Part shown: piece by piece, positions 36,441-43,393 of the stretch
Layout: the number at the start of each line of letters is the position of its first letter
How positions within the stretch are numbered: position 1 is the stretch's first letter
Source of the DNA: Chloroflexota bacterium
GTDB lineage: Bacteria > Chloroflexota > Limnocylindria > Limnocylindrales > CSP1-4
Reading direction: 5' to 3'
Length of the DNA: 53,566 nucleotides
Assembly (NCBI GenBank): GCA_030446555.1
Contig: JAUJNA010000002.1
Location: forward strand, 159,637-213,202
Program-made: the position numbers and the translations under genes
Notes under the pieces: generated by a model
Seen by the model: only the letters and a program-made list of their open reading frames with translations
Database searches by the model: none
Told to the model about the DNA's origin: nothing

Positions 36441-36869
36441 TCACCTCCCTCGACGCTCCACCAGGAGGTCGATCGCGTCGAGATAGCCGGGCCATCCGCG
36501 GCCGATGACTTGCCCGATGACGACCTGCTCGAGCACCAGCTGCCGGCGCCACGGCTCACGCGCACGCACGTCGCTGAGATGGACCTCCACGGCGGGCCGC
36601 TCGACGCCGGCGATCGCGTCGGCAAGTGCGTGGCTGGTGTGTCCCAGGGCGCCCGGGTTGATGACCACGGCGTCGAAGTCAAGGGCCTCGAGACGGTCGA
36701 TCAGCGCCCCCTCGTGGTTCGACTGGAAGTCGGCGAGCTCACAGTCGCGCGCCGCCGCGTGGGCGCGGGCCCGCTCGACCACCTCGGCCAGCGTCGTCCG
36801 ACCGTAGATCTCCGGCTGGCGAACGCCGAGCCGGCCCAGGTTGGGGCCGTTGAGCAGGAGGATCCTCAC
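36441..36869 (-). CDS. aroQ: Type II 3-dehydroquinate dehydratase
   Basis: 142 aa; MRILLLNGPNLGRLGVRQPEIYGRTTLAEV, FQSNHEGALIDRLE, VINPGALGHTSHALADAI. Confidence 0.96.
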   Translation of the reverse strand: MRILLLNGPNLGRLGVRQPEIYGRTTLAEVVERARAHAAARDCELADFQSNHEGALIDRLEALDFDAVVINPGALGHTSHALADAIAGVERPAVEVHLSDVRAREPWRRQLVLEQVVIGQVIGRGWPGYLDAIDLLVERRGR

Positions 36870-38497
36870 GGCGCGGAGATCGTGGCCATCGCGTGGGCGA
36901 GCTCGGTCTCGCTGACATCGTCGACCTCCGTGACGCGCCCGACCGCCATCGGCAGGATCCAGCGGAGCCGCCCGCGGTCGCGCTTCTTGTCGCTCCCGAG
37001 CGCGGACCGGACGACGGCGGGATCGAAGCGCGCGTGGAGCGAGAAGCCGAGCCGCGCCAGCACGTCGTCGATGCGCGCCGCGAGACCGGGCTCCGCGCCG
37101 CGACCTTCGGCCATCGCTGCGACCGCGCGGAGTCCGAGCGCGACGGCTGCTCCATGCGGCATCGAGTAGCCGCTGGCCACCTCGAGCGCATGGCCCAGCG
37201 TGTGGCCCAGGTTGAGCGTCCGCCGTTCGCCGTGGTCGAAGGGATCGCGCTCCACGATGGCCAGCTTCGACCGCGCCGCTCGTTCCGTGATCGCGTAGCG
37301 GACACCTTCATCCTCGCCGGACAGCGCCGCGAGGCCCTGCCGTTCGACGAGCTCCCAGAGCACCGCGTCGCCGATGAGTCCGGCCTTCAGGCACTCGGCG
37401 ATGCCGTCCCGACGGCGTGCGAGTGGCAGCGCCCGGATGTGCTCGATGTCGGCGATGACGCTCCATGCCGGCCAGAACGCCCCAGCCGCGTTCTTCGCGC
37501 TCGCGAGGTCGACGGCGACCTTGCCTCCGAGCGCGGAATCGGCCTGCGCCAGCCAGGTGGTGGGCAGGTGGACGAGCGGGATGCCGCGCAGGTAGAGCGA
37601 CGCCGCGACCCCGGCCAGGTCACCCACCGTCCCGCCCCCGACGGCGACCAGCGGATCGCCCCGTTCGACGCCCGCAGCTCGCAGCCACTCGAGCACGCGC
37701 TCCACGCCGCGCATGCGCTTGGCGCGCTCTCCGCCGGTCACCATCAGCCGGCGTCCATCGGGGAGCGCCGCATCGAGTGCCGGCAGCGCCCGGACTATGC
37801 GTCGGTCCGCCACGATCGCGGGCACGCGGCCCGGGAAGGCCTCGTGGAGCATCCGGCTCAACGCTGTGGCGTCGAGGCCGCGGCCGAGGACGACGCGACC
37901 CTCCGCGGGGCCGATCGGGTGGCGGCGCGTGACGAGCGCGTCGAACATCGCGCGCCACGTCGAACGCCCCGAATGGGATCGCGGATCGATGCCCGCCAGG
38001 ACGGCGTCGGCGACGCGCTCCGCCGGACCCGAGCCATCCACGACGAGGTCGGCGGCACGGTAGAACGGCGCGCGCTCCACCGCCTTGGCCTCGAGGACCC
38101 GAGCGGTATCGACGCGGTACATCGGACGCGGGATGAGGTCCGCGGCCAGGCGGTCCACCAGGTCGCGCGGCTGGACGGCGAGGTGGACGAGGACGCCGCG
38201 TGCCGTCAGATCCCACCGGTTGAGGGGGTCGATCACGGTCCCGCCACCCGTCGCGATGATCGCCTCGGGCGGGGCGTCGAGCGTGGCCACGGCGTCGCGC
38301 TCCACGGCGCGGAACGCAGCCTCGCCGCCGCGCTCGGTGTGCTCCGCGGCGCTGGCACCGGTCCGCTCCTGGACCCGCTCGTCGAGATCCACGAACGGGC
38401 GACCGAGGCGCTGCGCCAGGCAGCGTCCGACGCTGGTCTTGCCGCTCCCGGGCAGCCCGACGAGGACGATCCCGCTGCCGCTGATGGCGTCAGACAT
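36866..38497 (-). CDS. Shikimate kinase / 3-dehydroquinate synthase fusion (AroK-AroB)
   Basis: ATG 38497; N-term GIVLVGLPGSGKTSVGRCLAQRLGRPFVDLDE (shikimate kinase), C-term VAVGGGTVGDLAGVAASLYLRGIPLVHLPTTWLAQADSALGGKVAVDL...LNLGHTLGHALE (DHQ synthase). Confidence 0.95.
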   Translation of the reverse strand: MSDAISGSGIVLVGLPGSGKTSVGRCLAQRLGRPFVDLDERVQERTGASAAEHTERGGEAAFRAVERDAVATLDAPPEAIIATGGGTVIDPLNRWDLTARGVLVHLAVQPRDLVDRLAADLIPRPMYRVDTARVLEAKAVERAPFYRAADLVVDGSGPAERVADAVLAGIDPRSHSGRSTWRAMFDALVTRRHPIGPAEGRVVLGRGLDATALSRMLHEAFPGRVPAIVADRRIVRALPALDAALPDGRRLMVTGGERAKRMRGVERVLEWLRAAGVERGDPLVAVGGGTVGDLAGVAASLYLRGIPLVHLPTTWLAQADSALGGKVAVDLASAKNAAGAFWPAWSVIADIEHIRALPLARRRDGIAECLKAGLIGDAVLWELVERQGLAALSGEDEGVRYAITERAARSKLAIVERDPFDHGERRTLNLGHTLGHALEVASGYSMPHGAAVALGLRAVAAMAEGRGAEPGLAARIDDVLARLGFSLHARFDPAVVRSALGSDKKRDRGRLRWILPMAVGRVTEVDDVSETELAHAMATISAP

Positions 38498-39275
38498 CGG
38501 CGTCGGGGCCCAGCTCGGCGCGGAGCGCGGCACGCATCCGTTCGACGGGCGCCGCGACGTCGAGCCACAGCTCGAGGCTGCGCCGACCCTGGCCGAGCAG
38601 GACACCGGCCCCGGCCCGGGCGGTCGCGCCACGCTCGCGAGCTTCGCGGACGAGCCGCGTGGGGCTCGGACGGTAGACGAGGTCGAGGACGCTGAGGTCA
38701 GGACGGAGGAGCGCGGCGGGGATCGGTGTGTCGTCTCCCGCCGTGCCGACCGGCGTGGCGTTGACCACGAGCTGTGCCTCGGTCAGCAGCCGCGGGAGCG
38801 ACTCCCAGCCCGCGGCTCCATCGACCGGCGTGCGGGCCACCGGCGTGACGCGCCCGACGCCCGCCTCGCGCAGGGCCTGGATCAGCGCACGTGCGGCGCC
38901 ACCGGCGCCGAGCACCACCGCGTGCTCGAAGCGCGTGCCAAGGCGCCCCAGCTCCTCCACGATGGCCGGCAGGTCCGTGTTGTGGCCGATGGTGCGGCCG
39001 TCGCGCCGGACCACGGTGTTCACGGCGCGCACCTGGGCAGCGGCCGGCGAAAGATCGTCGACGAGGGCGACGGCGGCTGACTTGTGCGGGGTCGTGACGT
39101 TCGCGCCGAGAGCGTCGTCGGCGCGCAGCGCCTCGAACGCGCGGCCCAGGCCTTCGGCAGGCACGTCGACCAGCTCGTACCGATGCTCGAGCCCCAGCGC
39201 GCGGAACGCTGCGTCGTGCATCCGCGGCGAGGCCGAGTACCCGATGCGATGCCCAAGGAGCCGGACGATGGCCAT
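38490..39275 (-). CDS. aroE: Shikimate 5-dehydrogenase
   Basis: 261 aa; LLGHRIGYSASPRMHDAAFRALGLEHRYELVDV, GANVTTPHKSAAV, VLGAGGAARALIQAL. Confidence 0.95.
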   Translation of the reverse strand: MAIVRLLGHRIGYSASPRMHDAAFRALGLEHRYELVDVPAEGLGRAFEALRADDALGANVTTPHKSAAVALVDDLSPAAAQVRAVNTVVRRDGRTIGHNTDLPAIVEELGRLGTRFEHAVVLGAGGAARALIQALREAGVGRVTPVARTPVDGAAGWESLPRLLTEAQLVVNATPVGTAGDDTPIPAALLRPDLSVLDLVYRPSPTRLVREARERGATARAGAGVLLGQGRRSLELWLDVAAPVERMRAALRAELGPDADV

Positions 39276-39287
39276 GGGTGCTCGCGC

Positions 39288-40496
39288 TCAGCGGGCAGCG
39301 ACGGCGACGGACGGCTGGGTCGATCGACGGCGACGGCGACGGACGGCCGCGAGCAGGTCCGACATCGTGTCGCCGCCGAAGCTCGTGAGGAGGAGGTCGG
39401 CGAGCACCAGCGCGACCATCCCCTCGCCCACGATCGCCGCACGCGGCATGATCGCGATGTCCGAGCGCTCGATGTGCGCGCGTCCCGGCTCGCCGGTCGC
39501 GATGTCGACCGAGCCCAGCGGGCGGCGGAGCGTCGAGACGGGCTTGACCGCGGCGCGCACGACGATGGGCATCCCGTTGCTCATGCCGCCCTCGACACCG
39601 CCAGCGCGGTTGGTCCGACGCGCCCAGCCGTCGGAGGTCGCGTCGAGCTCGTCATGCATCTGGCTCCCCCACCGGCCGGCCACGTCGAAGCCGGCACCCA
39701 GCCCGACGCCCTTGACGGCGGGGATGCCCATGATCGCGGCCGCCAGTCCGGCGTCGAGCCGCGTGTCCCACTCGGAGCTGGATCCCAGTCCGATGGGCAC
39801 CCCTTCGGAGACCACGACGAATGCGCCCCCGACCGAATCGCCGGCCGCCCTCGCCTGGTCGACCTCGACCACCATCCGCCGTTCCGCGTCGGCGTCCGGG
39901 CAGCGAAGCGGTGTCGGATGGGCGAGGTCCGTAGCCACCCACGCGTCGGTGACGCACGTCAGCGGGTCCTCGACGGTGGGGAATGCCCGTACCGAGCCGA
40001 CCTGCTCGACATAGCTCCAGATCCGAACGCCGGCGGCGGCGAGGAGCTGCCGGCAGACGGCGCCGGCCAGCACGCGCGGAGCGGTCGACCGGGCGGATGC
40101 GCGCTCCAGCACGTCGCGGACATCACTCGTGCCGTACTTGATAGCCCCGGCGAGGTCGGCGTGGCCCGGTCGGGCGCGGGTCACCGGCCTGGGCCGTCGC
40201 GCCACCGGGATGGGCTCGATCGCCATCCGCTCCTGCCACTGGACCCAGTCGAGATTGTCGATGCGGAAGGCGAGCGGCGACCCGAGCGTTCGCCCGAAGC
40301 GAAGTCCCGCCATCCACGTCACGCGGTCGCGCTCGATGAGCATCCGCCGACCGCTGCCGTAGCCATGCTGGCGTCGGGCCAGGTCCCGGTCCACGGCGGC
40401 GGTCGAGACCTGCAGGCCGTAGGGCAGGCCCTCGAGCACGCCCGACACGGCCGGGCCATGCGACTCGCCGGCGGTCAGGAGCCGCAGCCGCCTCAC
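39288..40496 (-). CDS. aroC: Chorismate synthase
   Basis: 402 aa; RLLTAGESHGPAVSGVLEGLPYGL, DRDLARRQHGYGSGRRMLIERD, GHADLAGAIKYGTSDVRDVLERASARSTAPRVLAGA. Confidence 0.97.
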   Translation of the reverse strand: MRRLRLLTAGESHGPAVSGVLEGLPYGLQVSTAAVDRDLARRQHGYGSGRRMLIERDRVTWMAGLRFGRTLGSPLAFRIDNLDWVQWQERMAIEPIPVARRPRPVTRARPGHADLAGAIKYGTSDVRDVLERASARSTAPRVLAGAVCRQLLAAAGVRIWSYVEQVGSVRAFPTVEDPLTCVTDAWVATDLAHPTPLRCPDADAERRMVVEVDQARAAGDSVGGAFVVVSEGVPIGLGSSSEWDTRLDAGLAAAIMGIPAVKGVGLGAGFDVAGRWGSQMHDELDATSDGWARRTNRAGGVEGGMSNGMPIVVRAAVKPVSTLRRPLGSVDIATGEPGRAHIERSDIAIMPRAAIVGEGMVALVLADLLLTSFGGDTMSDLLAAVRRRRRRSTQPSVAVAAR

Positions 40497-41869
40497 CCCG
40501 TCGCTCCGAGTACCGCCGCGTCCCGCCAGAAGGTGGGGTATGAGATGGCGACGCAGTCGGGATCGTCGAGCGCAACGTCGCCGACCACGCCGGCCCAGGC
40601 GGCGACGGCCATCGCCATCGCGATGCGGTGGTCGCCTGCGGTGAGGACGCTGGCCGGCAACGCCGGGCCGCGCCCGATGCGCCAGCCGTCGGCCGCTTCC
40701 TCGACCCTTACGCCGCCCGCACGGAGCGCGGCCGCGAGCGTCGCGATCCGGTCACTCTCCTTGACGCGCAGCTCCGCCGCGCCGCGGACCTCGCTCGTGC
40801 CGTCCGCCGTGGCCATCGCAACGGCAAGGAGCGGCAGCTCGTCGATGAGCGGCGCGATCCGGTCGCCCTGCAGCGTGATCGCGCTCAGCCGGGACGCGCT
40901 GCGCACCCGGAGGTCGCCCACCGGCTCGGGGCCGCTATCGGTGTCTTCGTCCGGCGAGGTGTGGCGCGGTCGCACCTCGATATCGCCGCCCATCTCGCGC
41001 AGCGCATCGACGAGGCCCAGGCGCGTCGGGTTCAGGCCGACGCCCAGCAGCTCGATGTCGGCGTCGGGGTGGACCGTCGCCGCGACGATCCAGGCGGCGG
41101 CCGAGGAGATGTCACCGGGTACCTCGAGCGACCGCGCCGCGAGCATCGAGGGACCCCGCACGGTGGTCACCGTCCCCGCGGGGCACGAAGGGTCGGTCAC
41201 GCGGCCCACCCCGGCGCCCAGCCATCGGAGCAGCCGCTCCGTGTGATCGCGGGTCGCCCCGGGTGCGCGGATCACGGTCTGGCCGTCGGCGCTGAGCGCC
41301 GCGATGGCCACCGCACCGAGCACCTGGGCGCTCGCCACCTCCAGGCGGTGCTCCATCGCGGCGAGCGGCCGGTTGCCGCGGATCACGATGGGAGCGTGCC
41401 CGTGGGTCGTCTCCACGGCCGCGCCCATCCGCCGCAGCGGCGTCGCAACGCGCTCCATCGGACGCCGGCTCAGGGATGCGTCACCCCTCAACTCCACCTC
41501 ACCCCTGCCCGACGCCGCGAGGCCGGCGAGGAGCCGCATCGTGGAACCCGAGTTGGCACAGTCCGCCGAGGCGTCGCGTGTCACCCGAACGCCGGCATGA
41601 TCCCCGCGCCCCGCGACGCGAAACGATGTCGGGTCGTCCGGACCTACGCCCTGGTCCTCTCCGATGAAGGCGCCCAGCGCACGGAGCGCCCCGACCGTCG
41701 AGAGGACGTCGTGTCCCGGGTGTCGGATGGAGATGATCGCGTCGCCCGACGCCATCGCGCCGAACATGAGGGCCCGGTGGGCGATCGACTTGTCGCCCGG
41801 CAGCCGGATGGACCCCCGAAGCCGCGAAGCCCGGGCGAGCGGATGCACCGCCGCGACGGTCCCGGTCAC
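40493..41869 (-). CDS. aroA: 3-phosphoshikimate 1-carboxyvinyltransferase (EPSP synthase)
   Basis: 458 aa; RGSIRLPGDKSIAHRALMFGAMASG, DCANSGSTMRLLAGLAA, GDASLSRRPMERV, PGDISSAAAWIVAA. Confidence 0.96.
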   Translation of the reverse strand: MTGTVAAVHPLARASRLRGSIRLPGDKSIAHRALMFGAMASGDAIISIRHPGHDVLSTVGALRALGAFIGEDQGVGPDDPTSFRVAGRGDHAGVRVTRDASADCANSGSTMRLLAGLAASGRGEVELRGDASLSRRPMERVATPLRRMGAAVETTHGHAPIVIRGNRPLAAMEHRLEVASAQVLGAVAIAALSADGQTVIRAPGATRDHTERLLRWLGAGVGRVTDPSCPAGTVTTVRGPSMLAARSLEVPGDISSAAAWIVAATVHPDADIELLGVGLNPTRLGLVDALREMGGDIEVRPRHTSPDEDTDSGPEPVGDLRVRSASRLSAITLQGDRIAPLIDELPLLAVAMATADGTSEVRGAAELRVKESDRIATLAAALRAGGVRVEEAADGWRIGRGPALPASVLTAGDHRIAMAMAVAAWAGVVGDVALDDPDCVAISYPTFWRDAAVLGATG

Positions 41870-43206
41870 CCGGTCGCCTCCGTCCTCTGCGACGCGGCGG
41901 AGCCCATGGCATGCCGGCGCTGCACCGAGCGGGACGCTCGGAGGACGGCGGAGAGCACCATCCGCAGCTCTTCGTCATCCAGGACGCCGCTCGCGCTGGT
42001 GTCCAGGGCACGCTGGAGCACGTCGCGCTCGCGCAAGACGTCGTGCCCGTGGGCGGCCGTTCCCCTCGCGTCCTGCACGGCGAGTGCGATGCGCGCGCGC
42101 TCATGGAGCAGCTCCACCAGTCTCGCGTCCAGCGCATCGATGCGCTCGCGGAGCCCGGTGAGCGCAGCAGGGGTCGCGGCGGCGGGCGGTCCGACGACGT
42201 CGGTCGGACGGAGGTACTCCAGGCGACGGAGCTCGTCCATCAGCGCCCCGAACTCGGGGAAGGAGAGCGACTGGTCGCCGTCCGATCGGGCGCGCGCCGG
42301 ATCGGGATGGACCTCGACGATGAGGCCATCGGCGCCCACGGCTGCAGCCGCGAGCGCCATCGGTGCGACGAGTGAGCGGCGGCCCGTGCCGTGCGACGGG
42401 TCGATGATCACCGGCAGATGGGTCAGCTCACGCAGGACGGGCACGGCCGACAGGTCGAGCGTGTTGCGGGTTGCGGGTTCGAACGTCCGGATGCCCCGTT
42501 CGCACAGGATGACGTTGCTGTTGCCGCTCGAGAGGACATATTCGGCGGCCATCAGCCACTCCTCGATCGTGGCGCCGAAGCCGCGCTTCAACAGGATCGG
42601 CTTGCGTGTCTGACCGGCCGCGCGCAGCAGCGCGAAATTGTGCATGTTGCGGCTGCCGATCTGGATGACATCCACGTAGCGGTCGAACAGCTCGACCTGC
42701 CCGGTCTCGGTCATCTCGGAGATGATCGGCATGCCGGTCTCGTCACGTGCCCGGGCCAGCAGCTGCAGCGCCGGCTCACCGAGACCCTGGAATGCGTATG
42801 GCGACGTGCGCGGCTTGAACGCCCCGCCACGCAGGATCCGGGCGCCCTCGCGGTGGACCCACCGCGCGGTAGCGAGTAGTTGCTCCTCCGACTCGACCGA
42901 GCACGGCCCCGCCATCGTCACGAGCGGGCTGCCCGCGCCGACCTTGACGGCACCGATGCCGATACGCGTGCGGTCAGGGTGGTGCTCGAGGCTCGCGAGC
43001 TTGTACGGCCGGGTGACGCGGATGACCTCTTCCACACCGGACAGGGTCCCCACGTGCCCCACCCGCTCCAGGTCCGTTCCGACGACACCGATGATCACCC
43101 GCTCCTGACCCTCGCTGACGAACGCCTCGAGGCCCTCGTTGCGAATCAGCTCGCAGACTTGTTCGACCTCCCGAGGCTCGGCGCTCGGGCGCATCACGAC
43201 GATCAT
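41866..43206 (-). CDS. 3-deoxy-7-phosphoheptulonate synthase with C-terminal chorismate mutase domain
   Basis: ATG 43206; AGPCSVESEEQLLATARWVHREGARILRGGAFKPRTSPYAFQGLGEPALQLL, DPSHGTGRRSLV; C-terminal LRERIDALDARLVELLHERARIALAVQDARG (AroQ-type chorismate mutase). Confidence 0.94.
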   Translation of the reverse strand: MIVVMRPSAEPREVEQVCELIRNEGLEAFVSEGQERVIIGVVGTDLERVGHVGTLSGVEEVIRVTRPYKLASLEHHPDRTRIGIGAVKVGAGSPLVTMAGPCSVESEEQLLATARWVHREGARILRGGAFKPRTSPYAFQGLGEPALQLLARARDETGMPIISEMTETGQVELFDRYVDVIQIGSRNMHNFALLRAAGQTRKPILLKRGFGATIEEWLMAAEYVLSSGNSNVILCERGIRTFEPATRNTLDLSAVPVLRELTHLPVIIDPSHGTGRRSLVAPMALAAAAVGADGLIVEVHPDPARARSDGDQSLSFPEFGALMDELRRLEYLRPTDVVGPPAAATPAALTGLRERIDALDARLVELLHERARIALAVQDARGTAAHGHDVLRERDVLQRALDTSASGVLDDEELRMVLSAVLRASRSVQRRHAMGSAASQRTEATG

Positions 43207-43230: not shown

Positions 43231-43271
43231 CCCGAAAAGACGAAACGCAGGTCGCCTTGCGGCACCTGCGT
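43231..43271 (-). terminator. Terminator-like hairpin plus U-rich tail in the aro leader
   Basis: Minus strand ACGCAGGTGCCGCAAGGCGACCTGCGTTTCGTCTTTTCGG: 8-bp perfect stem plus GCC/GGC extension, then TTTCGTCTTTT; lies 5' of the DAHP synthase start codon. Confidence 0.6.
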
Positions 43272-43324
43272 CTGCGGGCACGAGATGACCTGCTGGCGAG
43301 CGTTGCTCGCCGGCCTCGTACCCG

Positions 43325-43354
43325 CTAGGCGTAATACCCGAAGGAGAGGGTCAT
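43325..43354 (-). CDS. Candidate leader peptide MTLSFGYYA (Phe/Tyr-containing)
   Basis: Minus strand ATG ACC CTC TCC TTC GGG TAT TAC GCC TAG; begins 10 nt after a -10-like TAGGCT and is followed immediately by an RNA stem. Confidence 0.6.
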   Translation of the reverse strand: MTLSFGYYA

Positions 43355-43364
43355 CAGGGCGCGG

Positions 43365-43393
43365 AGCCTAGGGGCACGCCCGCCTCGTGTCAA
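43365..43393 (-). promoter_or_regulatory. Sigma70-type promoter of the shikimate operon
   Basis: Minus strand TTGACA (43393-43388), 17-nt spacer, TAGGCT (43370-43365). Confidence 0.75.

Follow-up and report, generated by a model that had tools for sequence, protein, structure and literature searches.

What governs expression of the shikimate operon at this locus, and does the short leader in front of it take part? The question arises from a 53,566-nucleotide stretch of Chloroflexota DNA, probably from the class Limnocylindria and referred to hereafter, in its entirety, as the window (source genome 2.1 Mb, 78% complete), in which the minus strand carries an operon for aromatic biosynthesis behind a short open reading frame (ORF) and two stems. 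The initial annotation read this leader as a ribosome-mediated Phe/Tyr transcription attenuator. On the strength of sequence comparison and computed folding we judge that reading very probably correct, and it is supported in outline by a conserved ORF, conserved stems, and a conserved promoter.

The genes 3′ of the leader, all on the minus strand, run in the order DAHP synthase–chorismate mutase, aroA, aroC, aroE, aroKB, aroQ. The first (41866–43206) matches NCBIfam NF006421 over residues 1–331 (E = 6e-141) and chorismate mutase models at its C-terminus; since the product that begins at ATG 43206 is covered by the DAHP synthase model from its first residue, we take this ATG as the start in preference to the GTG 43281 of a mechanical ORF list. 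It is followed by aroA (EPSP synthase, 40493–41869, TIGR01356), the start of which overlaps the stop of the upstream gene, by aroC (chorismate synthase, 39288–40496, TIGR00033), by aroE (shikimate dehydrogenase, 38490–39275; NF001319 and TIGR00507, both under curated cut-offs), by an aroK–aroB fusion (shikimate kinase/3-dehydroquinate synthase, 36866–38497, the start at 38497 being our inference; NF010627 and TIGR01357, under curated cut-offs), and by aroQ (type II 3-dehydroquinate dehydratase, 36441–36869, NF003807). On the other side of the leader lies a divergent gene for a PPOX-class oxidoreductase.

Each of the sequence elements that the initial annotation had described was recovered on the minus strand, together with one that it had overlooked, a −35 box (TTGACA, 43388–43393). 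This box is conserved in related leaders and is separated by a 17-nt spacer from the −10 box (TAGGCT, 43365–43370), which lies 10 nt 5′ of the leader ATG in a placement that is likewise conserved; transcription is thus predicted to start at or just 5′ of the ATG, giving an mRNA with almost no 5′ untranslated region. The near-leaderless ORF (43325–43354; ATG ACC CTC TCC TTC GGG TAT TAC GCC TAG), which has no Shine–Dalgarno sequence, encodes MTLSFGYYA, with one Phe and a Tyr-Tyr pair (that it holds only three aromatic codons counts against the attenuator reading). Directly 3′ of its stop codon begins the 5′ arm of a stem that we term P1 (CGGGTACGAGG, 43314–43324, including CGGGTACGAG at 43324–43315), the 3′ arm of which (CTCGTGCCCG) occupies 43275–43284. 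Within P1 lie an inner hairpin (GGCGAGC-AAC-GCTCGCC, 43295–43311), with double-sided changes among relatives, and the segment GCAGGTC (43287–43293), a candidate antiterminator that is only partially conserved. A terminator-like hairpin then follows (ACGCAGGTGCC-GCAA-GGCGACCTGCGT, 43245–43271; 12 bp with one bulged G), of a GNRA-loop type kept across the clade of the window described below. Its T-tract (TTTCGTCTTTT, 43235–43245) is interrupted, so that termination in the window may be leaky; relatives have TTTTTTGTTT. For the 171-nt leader, the computed folding energy is −82.4 kcal/mol (z = −3.5; equaled by 2 of 200 dinucleotide shuffles), and P1 alone outscores 200 of 200 shuffles. Simple consensus scans of the window called neither a promoter nor a terminator at the leader, as TAGGCT fits the −10 consensus at only three of six positions and the T-tract is imperfect.

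To ask how widely this arrangement occurs, a first set of upstream regions was gathered through DAHP synthase orthology and not through RNA similarity. In the order to which the window belongs, all upstream regions uncut by a contig end contain a mini-ORF rich in Phe, Tyr, and Trp, together with a stem and a terminator-like hairpin; for three DAHP synthases belonging to other families in the class, the upstream region has no such leader. Two leader types are found in the class. In the window clade (the window, G028, G001, G021, G102, and G004), the leader UAG stands directly before P1, and the peptides of the relatives read MKSFFWYYT (G028), MTSFFWYPT (G001), MSHLYYWFT (G021), MTQQFWFYA (G102), and MAHQTWFYA (G004). 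In a larger clade, the leader stop is overlapped by P1 (CCCGGCAUGACC...GGUCGUGCCGGG), and the terminator core is GCAGAGG/CCUCUGC. The two types are homologous, since covariance models detect each across the divide: a model built on relatives with the window excluded finds four of the six window-clade members (E ≤ 1.3e-6), and a window-clade model finds the larger clade at E-values down to 5e-13.

The former model matches 106 of 177 same-class genomes, almost always once per genome. The ORF downstream could be read for 94 leaders, and for 93 of these it is DAHP synthase (judged from N-termini by inspection; an automatic pattern flagged 22, all but one of them DAHP synthase by eye), and the lone exception (L129) is a frame artefact, given that a DAHP synthase match occurs at the same place. 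In G130, a DAHP synthase gene for which no leader was detected lies 36 nt from the end of its contig. One genome, G069, has two DAHP synthase genes, each with a leader of its own (L118 and L119). A promoter of the form TTGAC-N17/18-TAnnnT precedes the leader start by 6–15 nt in 100 of 105 related leaders, compared with 0 of 102 control windows, and a Shine–Dalgarno-like core precedes just 6 of the 105. Two doubts raised in the initial annotation—that ORF and stems might be unconserved, and that transcription might start downstream of 43325—are both answered by these comparisons: the ORF and stems recur in five window-type relatives and, as a homologous type, in roughly 100 further genomes of the class, and the conserved promoter puts the start upstream of the ORF.

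The leader peptides are markedly aromatic. Phe, Tyr, and Trp make up 35% of residues across the 106 (18.8, 14.2, and 1.9%, respectively), with at least two Phe/Tyr residues in all but one. Among larger-clade leaders, the codon in fifth position 5′ of the stop specifies Phe or Tyr in 97 of 97 peptides ending in PA or PV; where it is Phe, it is written UUU 47 times and UUC once, as against 35 UUU and 727 UUC in the downstream DAHP synthase genes. At the last two aromatic positions of this clade, Phe is nearly always encoded by the rare UUU, and earlier Phe codons are mainly UUC. This placement might reflect slow decoding, or it might serve to avoid pairing with the terminator.

P1 is stronger than in shuffled sequence for each of the five window-clade members examined and for 95% of 40 further leaders (p ≤ 0.02), and compensatory pairs are present among relatives. 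In an alignment of 31 sequences, 96% of the cells in P1 and the terminator-like hairpin are paired, and none of 500 shuffles reaches the covariation score of these stems (a control that kinship inflates); the signal is lost when the partner is slid. The distance from the start of the last aromatic codon to P1 is 8 nt in 84 of 100 larger-clade leaders; it is 9 nt in the window, where the codon in question is the second of the Tyr pair, and in all but one of the four close relatives measured, the exception being L032 with 12 nt. If the ribosome footprint is assumed to reach ~13 nt beyond the first A-site base, this fixed spacing implies that a ribosome stalled at the last aromatic codon would mask the base of P1. 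In computed folds, the probability of the P1 base falls from 0.98 to 0.00 when a stalled ribosome is masked, and removing the ribosome restores it.

Leaders of the larger clade mostly have a second mini-ORF, the start of which shares an AUGA with the stop of the first. In 85 of 100 leaders it terminates exactly six codons farther on, in the loop of the inner hairpin (in L011:1341–1453, for example, it encodes MTVPGA). Its start is AUG in 88 of 100, its stops include UAG, UGA, and UAA, and the other two frames are mostly stop-free. The stop falls 24 nt into P1, and several single-ORF leaders elsewhere in the phylum stop 28–32 nt past the start of P1; the second mini-ORF may therefore relay the ribosome to the same spot at which longer single leaders stop. 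The window itself has no second mini-ORF. Such a relay would be the most novel aspect of these relatives and, if true, would make termination–reinitiation part of the switch.

Outside the class the homologues are weaker: the larger-clade model matched ~99 genomes in other Chloroflexota classes (E-values from 3e-16 to 8e-4). Inspection of 40 of these matches left about three spurious or unclear, and most of the others stand 5′ of DAHP synthase, including the AroG-like family of that enzyme (downstream of L225 and L247); tyrS follows one leader (L235, in G301) and pheS another (L255, in G452). P1 itself is retained in out-of-class leaders with wholly different sequences, and the recurrence of the GCAGAGG core among these matches is explained in part by the model used in the search. 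We give slightly less than an even chance to the broadest formulation, namely a Chloroflexota-wide attenuator family serving DAHP synthase of both sequence families, TyrS, and PheS, with near-leaderless ORFs and, in most of the class, a two-ORF AUGA relay. Similar terminator-bearing leaders precede asd (aspartate-semialdehyde dehydrogenase) at L241 (G478) and L252 (G513), where the peptides do not look specifically aromatic. Farther afield, three DAHP synthase loci of Actinomycetota (L170, L192, and L163) are preceded by short ORFs containing runs like YWFFYCY and VYFFWF, along with GC-rich terminator-like hairpins; judged by sequence, these are possibly aromatic attenuators in Actinobacteria too.

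Several of the features expected of an attenuator are present: a conserved aromatic leader ORF, an upstream promoter, a hairpin and T-tract before the first gene (a predicted terminator), and a stem at a fixed distance from the regulatory codons, the computed closing of which depends on ribosome position. From these we infer how the switch would respond. Transcription would begin at or a few bases 5′ of the leader ATG, and a ribosome would load onto the near-leaderless ORF. With charged Phe- and Tyr-tRNA in ample supply, the ribosome would complete the nine-codon peptide and depart; P1 would then close, and RNA polymerase would stop at the hairpin and T-tract. When these tRNAs are scarce, the ribosome would stall on the last aromatic codon, 9 nt 5′ of P1, and its footprint would cover the base of the P1 5′ arm and hold P1 open. 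The segments so freed (in the window, probably GCAGGTC and the end of the P1 3′ arm) would compete for the 3′ arm of the terminator, disfavoring it and allowing read-through into DAHP synthase–chorismate mutase and the downstream aro genes.

The least settled element of this scheme is the antiterminator. The initial annotation had assigned the role to GCAGGTC paired with GACCTGC (43253–43247) in the terminator 3′ arm, and in the window this assignment is plausible: the pairing is 7/7, and in a model with the ribosome stalled on the last Tyr codon the cost of forbidding the terminator is 1.9 kcal/mol (4.4 kcal/mol with the ribosome at the stop; 11.8 kcal/mol with no ribosome), the best terminator-free fold of the stalled state including GCAGGUC:GACCUGC. 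As a conserved mechanism it is not established. Among close relatives, four have a terminator that can be read; in these the match is 6/7 to 4/7 and the stalled-state terminator-free cost is 9.0–13.4 kcal/mol; the corresponding segment reads GCAGAGG or GCAAAGG in close relatives, and GCACCAC in G004. Two results here count against the attenuator reading as a whole, in that outside the window the terminator is clearly the favored fold for every ribosome state, and none of the antiterminator candidates passes a covariation or shuffle test.

An attenuator could also be switched by other pairings, and to this alternative we would assign somewhat below an even probability. It would set P1 against a second stem, P2 (formed by the inner segment, or by GGCA...UGCC, with the P1 3′ arm), or would use a pairing of the GCRCGGGUC:GACCUCUGC type with the terminator 3′ arm, in place of GCAGGTC:GACCTGC. 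P2-type folds arise in both clades once the P1 5′ arm is masked, and the base of P1, lost under the stalled ribosome, closes (0.86) with the ribosome placed on the codon that terminates the second mini-ORF. GCRCGGGUC:GACCUCUGC, a larger-clade candidate, ranks first among 22 registers (6.46 of 9 pairs, the next having 5.06), but its duplexes there are no stronger than those of shuffles, and it stays a candidate only; a related pairing between the P1 3′ and terminator 3′ arms (GGGUC:GACC), which forms the core of this candidate, was rejected, as covariation is absent when compared with permuted partners. Against this alternative too, GCAGGTC:GACCTGC is exact in the window and belongs to the lowest-cost terminator-free fold there. 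Pairing of the leader codons with the terminator 5′ arm was rejected as a switch, as synonymous choice weakens it (−6.0 kcal/mol, versus −7.0 kcal/mol expected).

Recognition of the hairpins by a protein or small RNA (TRAP-like or trans-acting), with the ORF secondary, is a reading that we consider very unlikely, although one observation speaks for it: both arms of the terminator core GCAGAGG/CCTCTGC are near-invariant across two families, beyond what pairing needs, where P1 sequences vary widely. Yet the window clade has ACGCAGG/CCTGCGT and not this core, the invariance outside the class is biased by a search model that rewards the core, and conserved triple-complementary patterns have been reported in actinobacterial trp attenuators (PMC1262725). 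That the core might be a general terminator of these genomes was considered and rejected; in the genomes of the family it is present at the leader and almost nowhere else. More improbable again is the view that the leader is untranslated and its ORF accidental, the hairpin being simply an intrinsic terminator or a processing site. P1 and the hairpin are indeed very stable by themselves, and a terminator is predicted for every ribosome state, but an accidental ORF is hard to reconcile with ~106 aromatic-rich leader ORFs of fixed stop and spacing, with rare UUU placed specifically at the last aromatic positions, and with the same leader type 5′ of TyrS and PheS. Least probable of all is translation attenuation, in which the leader would control the DAHP synthase start site and not termination; leader-peptide systems of this kind exist, erm being an example, but the T-tract ends 20–140 nt 5′ of the start codon in nearly all leaders, no examined fold hides a ribosome-binding site, and the terminator-like hairpin and T-tract are conserved.

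For the transcription attenuator that we favor, the closest precedent, by analogy, is aroR–aroF of Corynebacterium glutamicum (Neshat et al, 2014, via PMC11802643; PMC4046766). A short aromatic leader peptide (Phe-Tyr-Phe) there precedes the DAHP synthase gene, as in the window, and ribosome stalling is reported to lift operon transcription under Phe limitation. That system belongs to another phylum, and it is reported to be indifferent to Tyr availability; the window leader, by contrast, has two Tyr codons and one Phe. The pheA (pheL) and pheST leaders of Escherichia coli also place Phe codons in a peptide before a terminator and, as here, serve synthetase and biosynthetic targets, but unlike the window leader they respond to Phe only; for DAHP synthase, E. 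coli relies on repression of the genes by TyrR/TrpR, unlike the attenuation proposed here.

No Rfam family, T-box (RF00230) included, matches above threshold in the window or in ten related loci. The G028 leader (L003) aligns end to end with RF02502 on the same strand and with the same topology, but its 28.4 bits fall short of the gathering score, which is 50, so that it is not a member of that family, which we take from its consensus to be a trp leader; RF02502 has no match in the window. RF02502 (Atu_C8, from Rhizobiales) and the actinobacterial trp attenuators share with the window the succession of leader, long stem with an inner hairpin, and terminator (PMC1262725). A 2005 survey found the Phe/Tyr operons of Actinobacteria to be without such structures (PMC1262725), and a 2010 survey, in which leader-peptide systems had earlier been known only from Proteobacteria and Actinobacteria, added the Firmicutes (PMC2965389). 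The literature searched, largely outside subscription journals, yielded no leader-peptide attenuator from Chloroflexota, aromatic or other, in agreement with the remark in the initial annotation that no example was known in this lineage. The kind of attenuation, in which Phe/Tyr leaders control DAHP synthase, is already known from aroR–aroF; the Chloroflexota example and its RNA family are new as far as we have found.

The comparison amounts to a concrete, conserved prediction, that a mostly uncultured phylum may control entry into aromatic biosynthesis by translating a nine-codon peptide. More than 100 aligned examples in two unlike clades make the codon-to-stem geometry, the placement of rare codons, and the relay through a second ORF directly testable.
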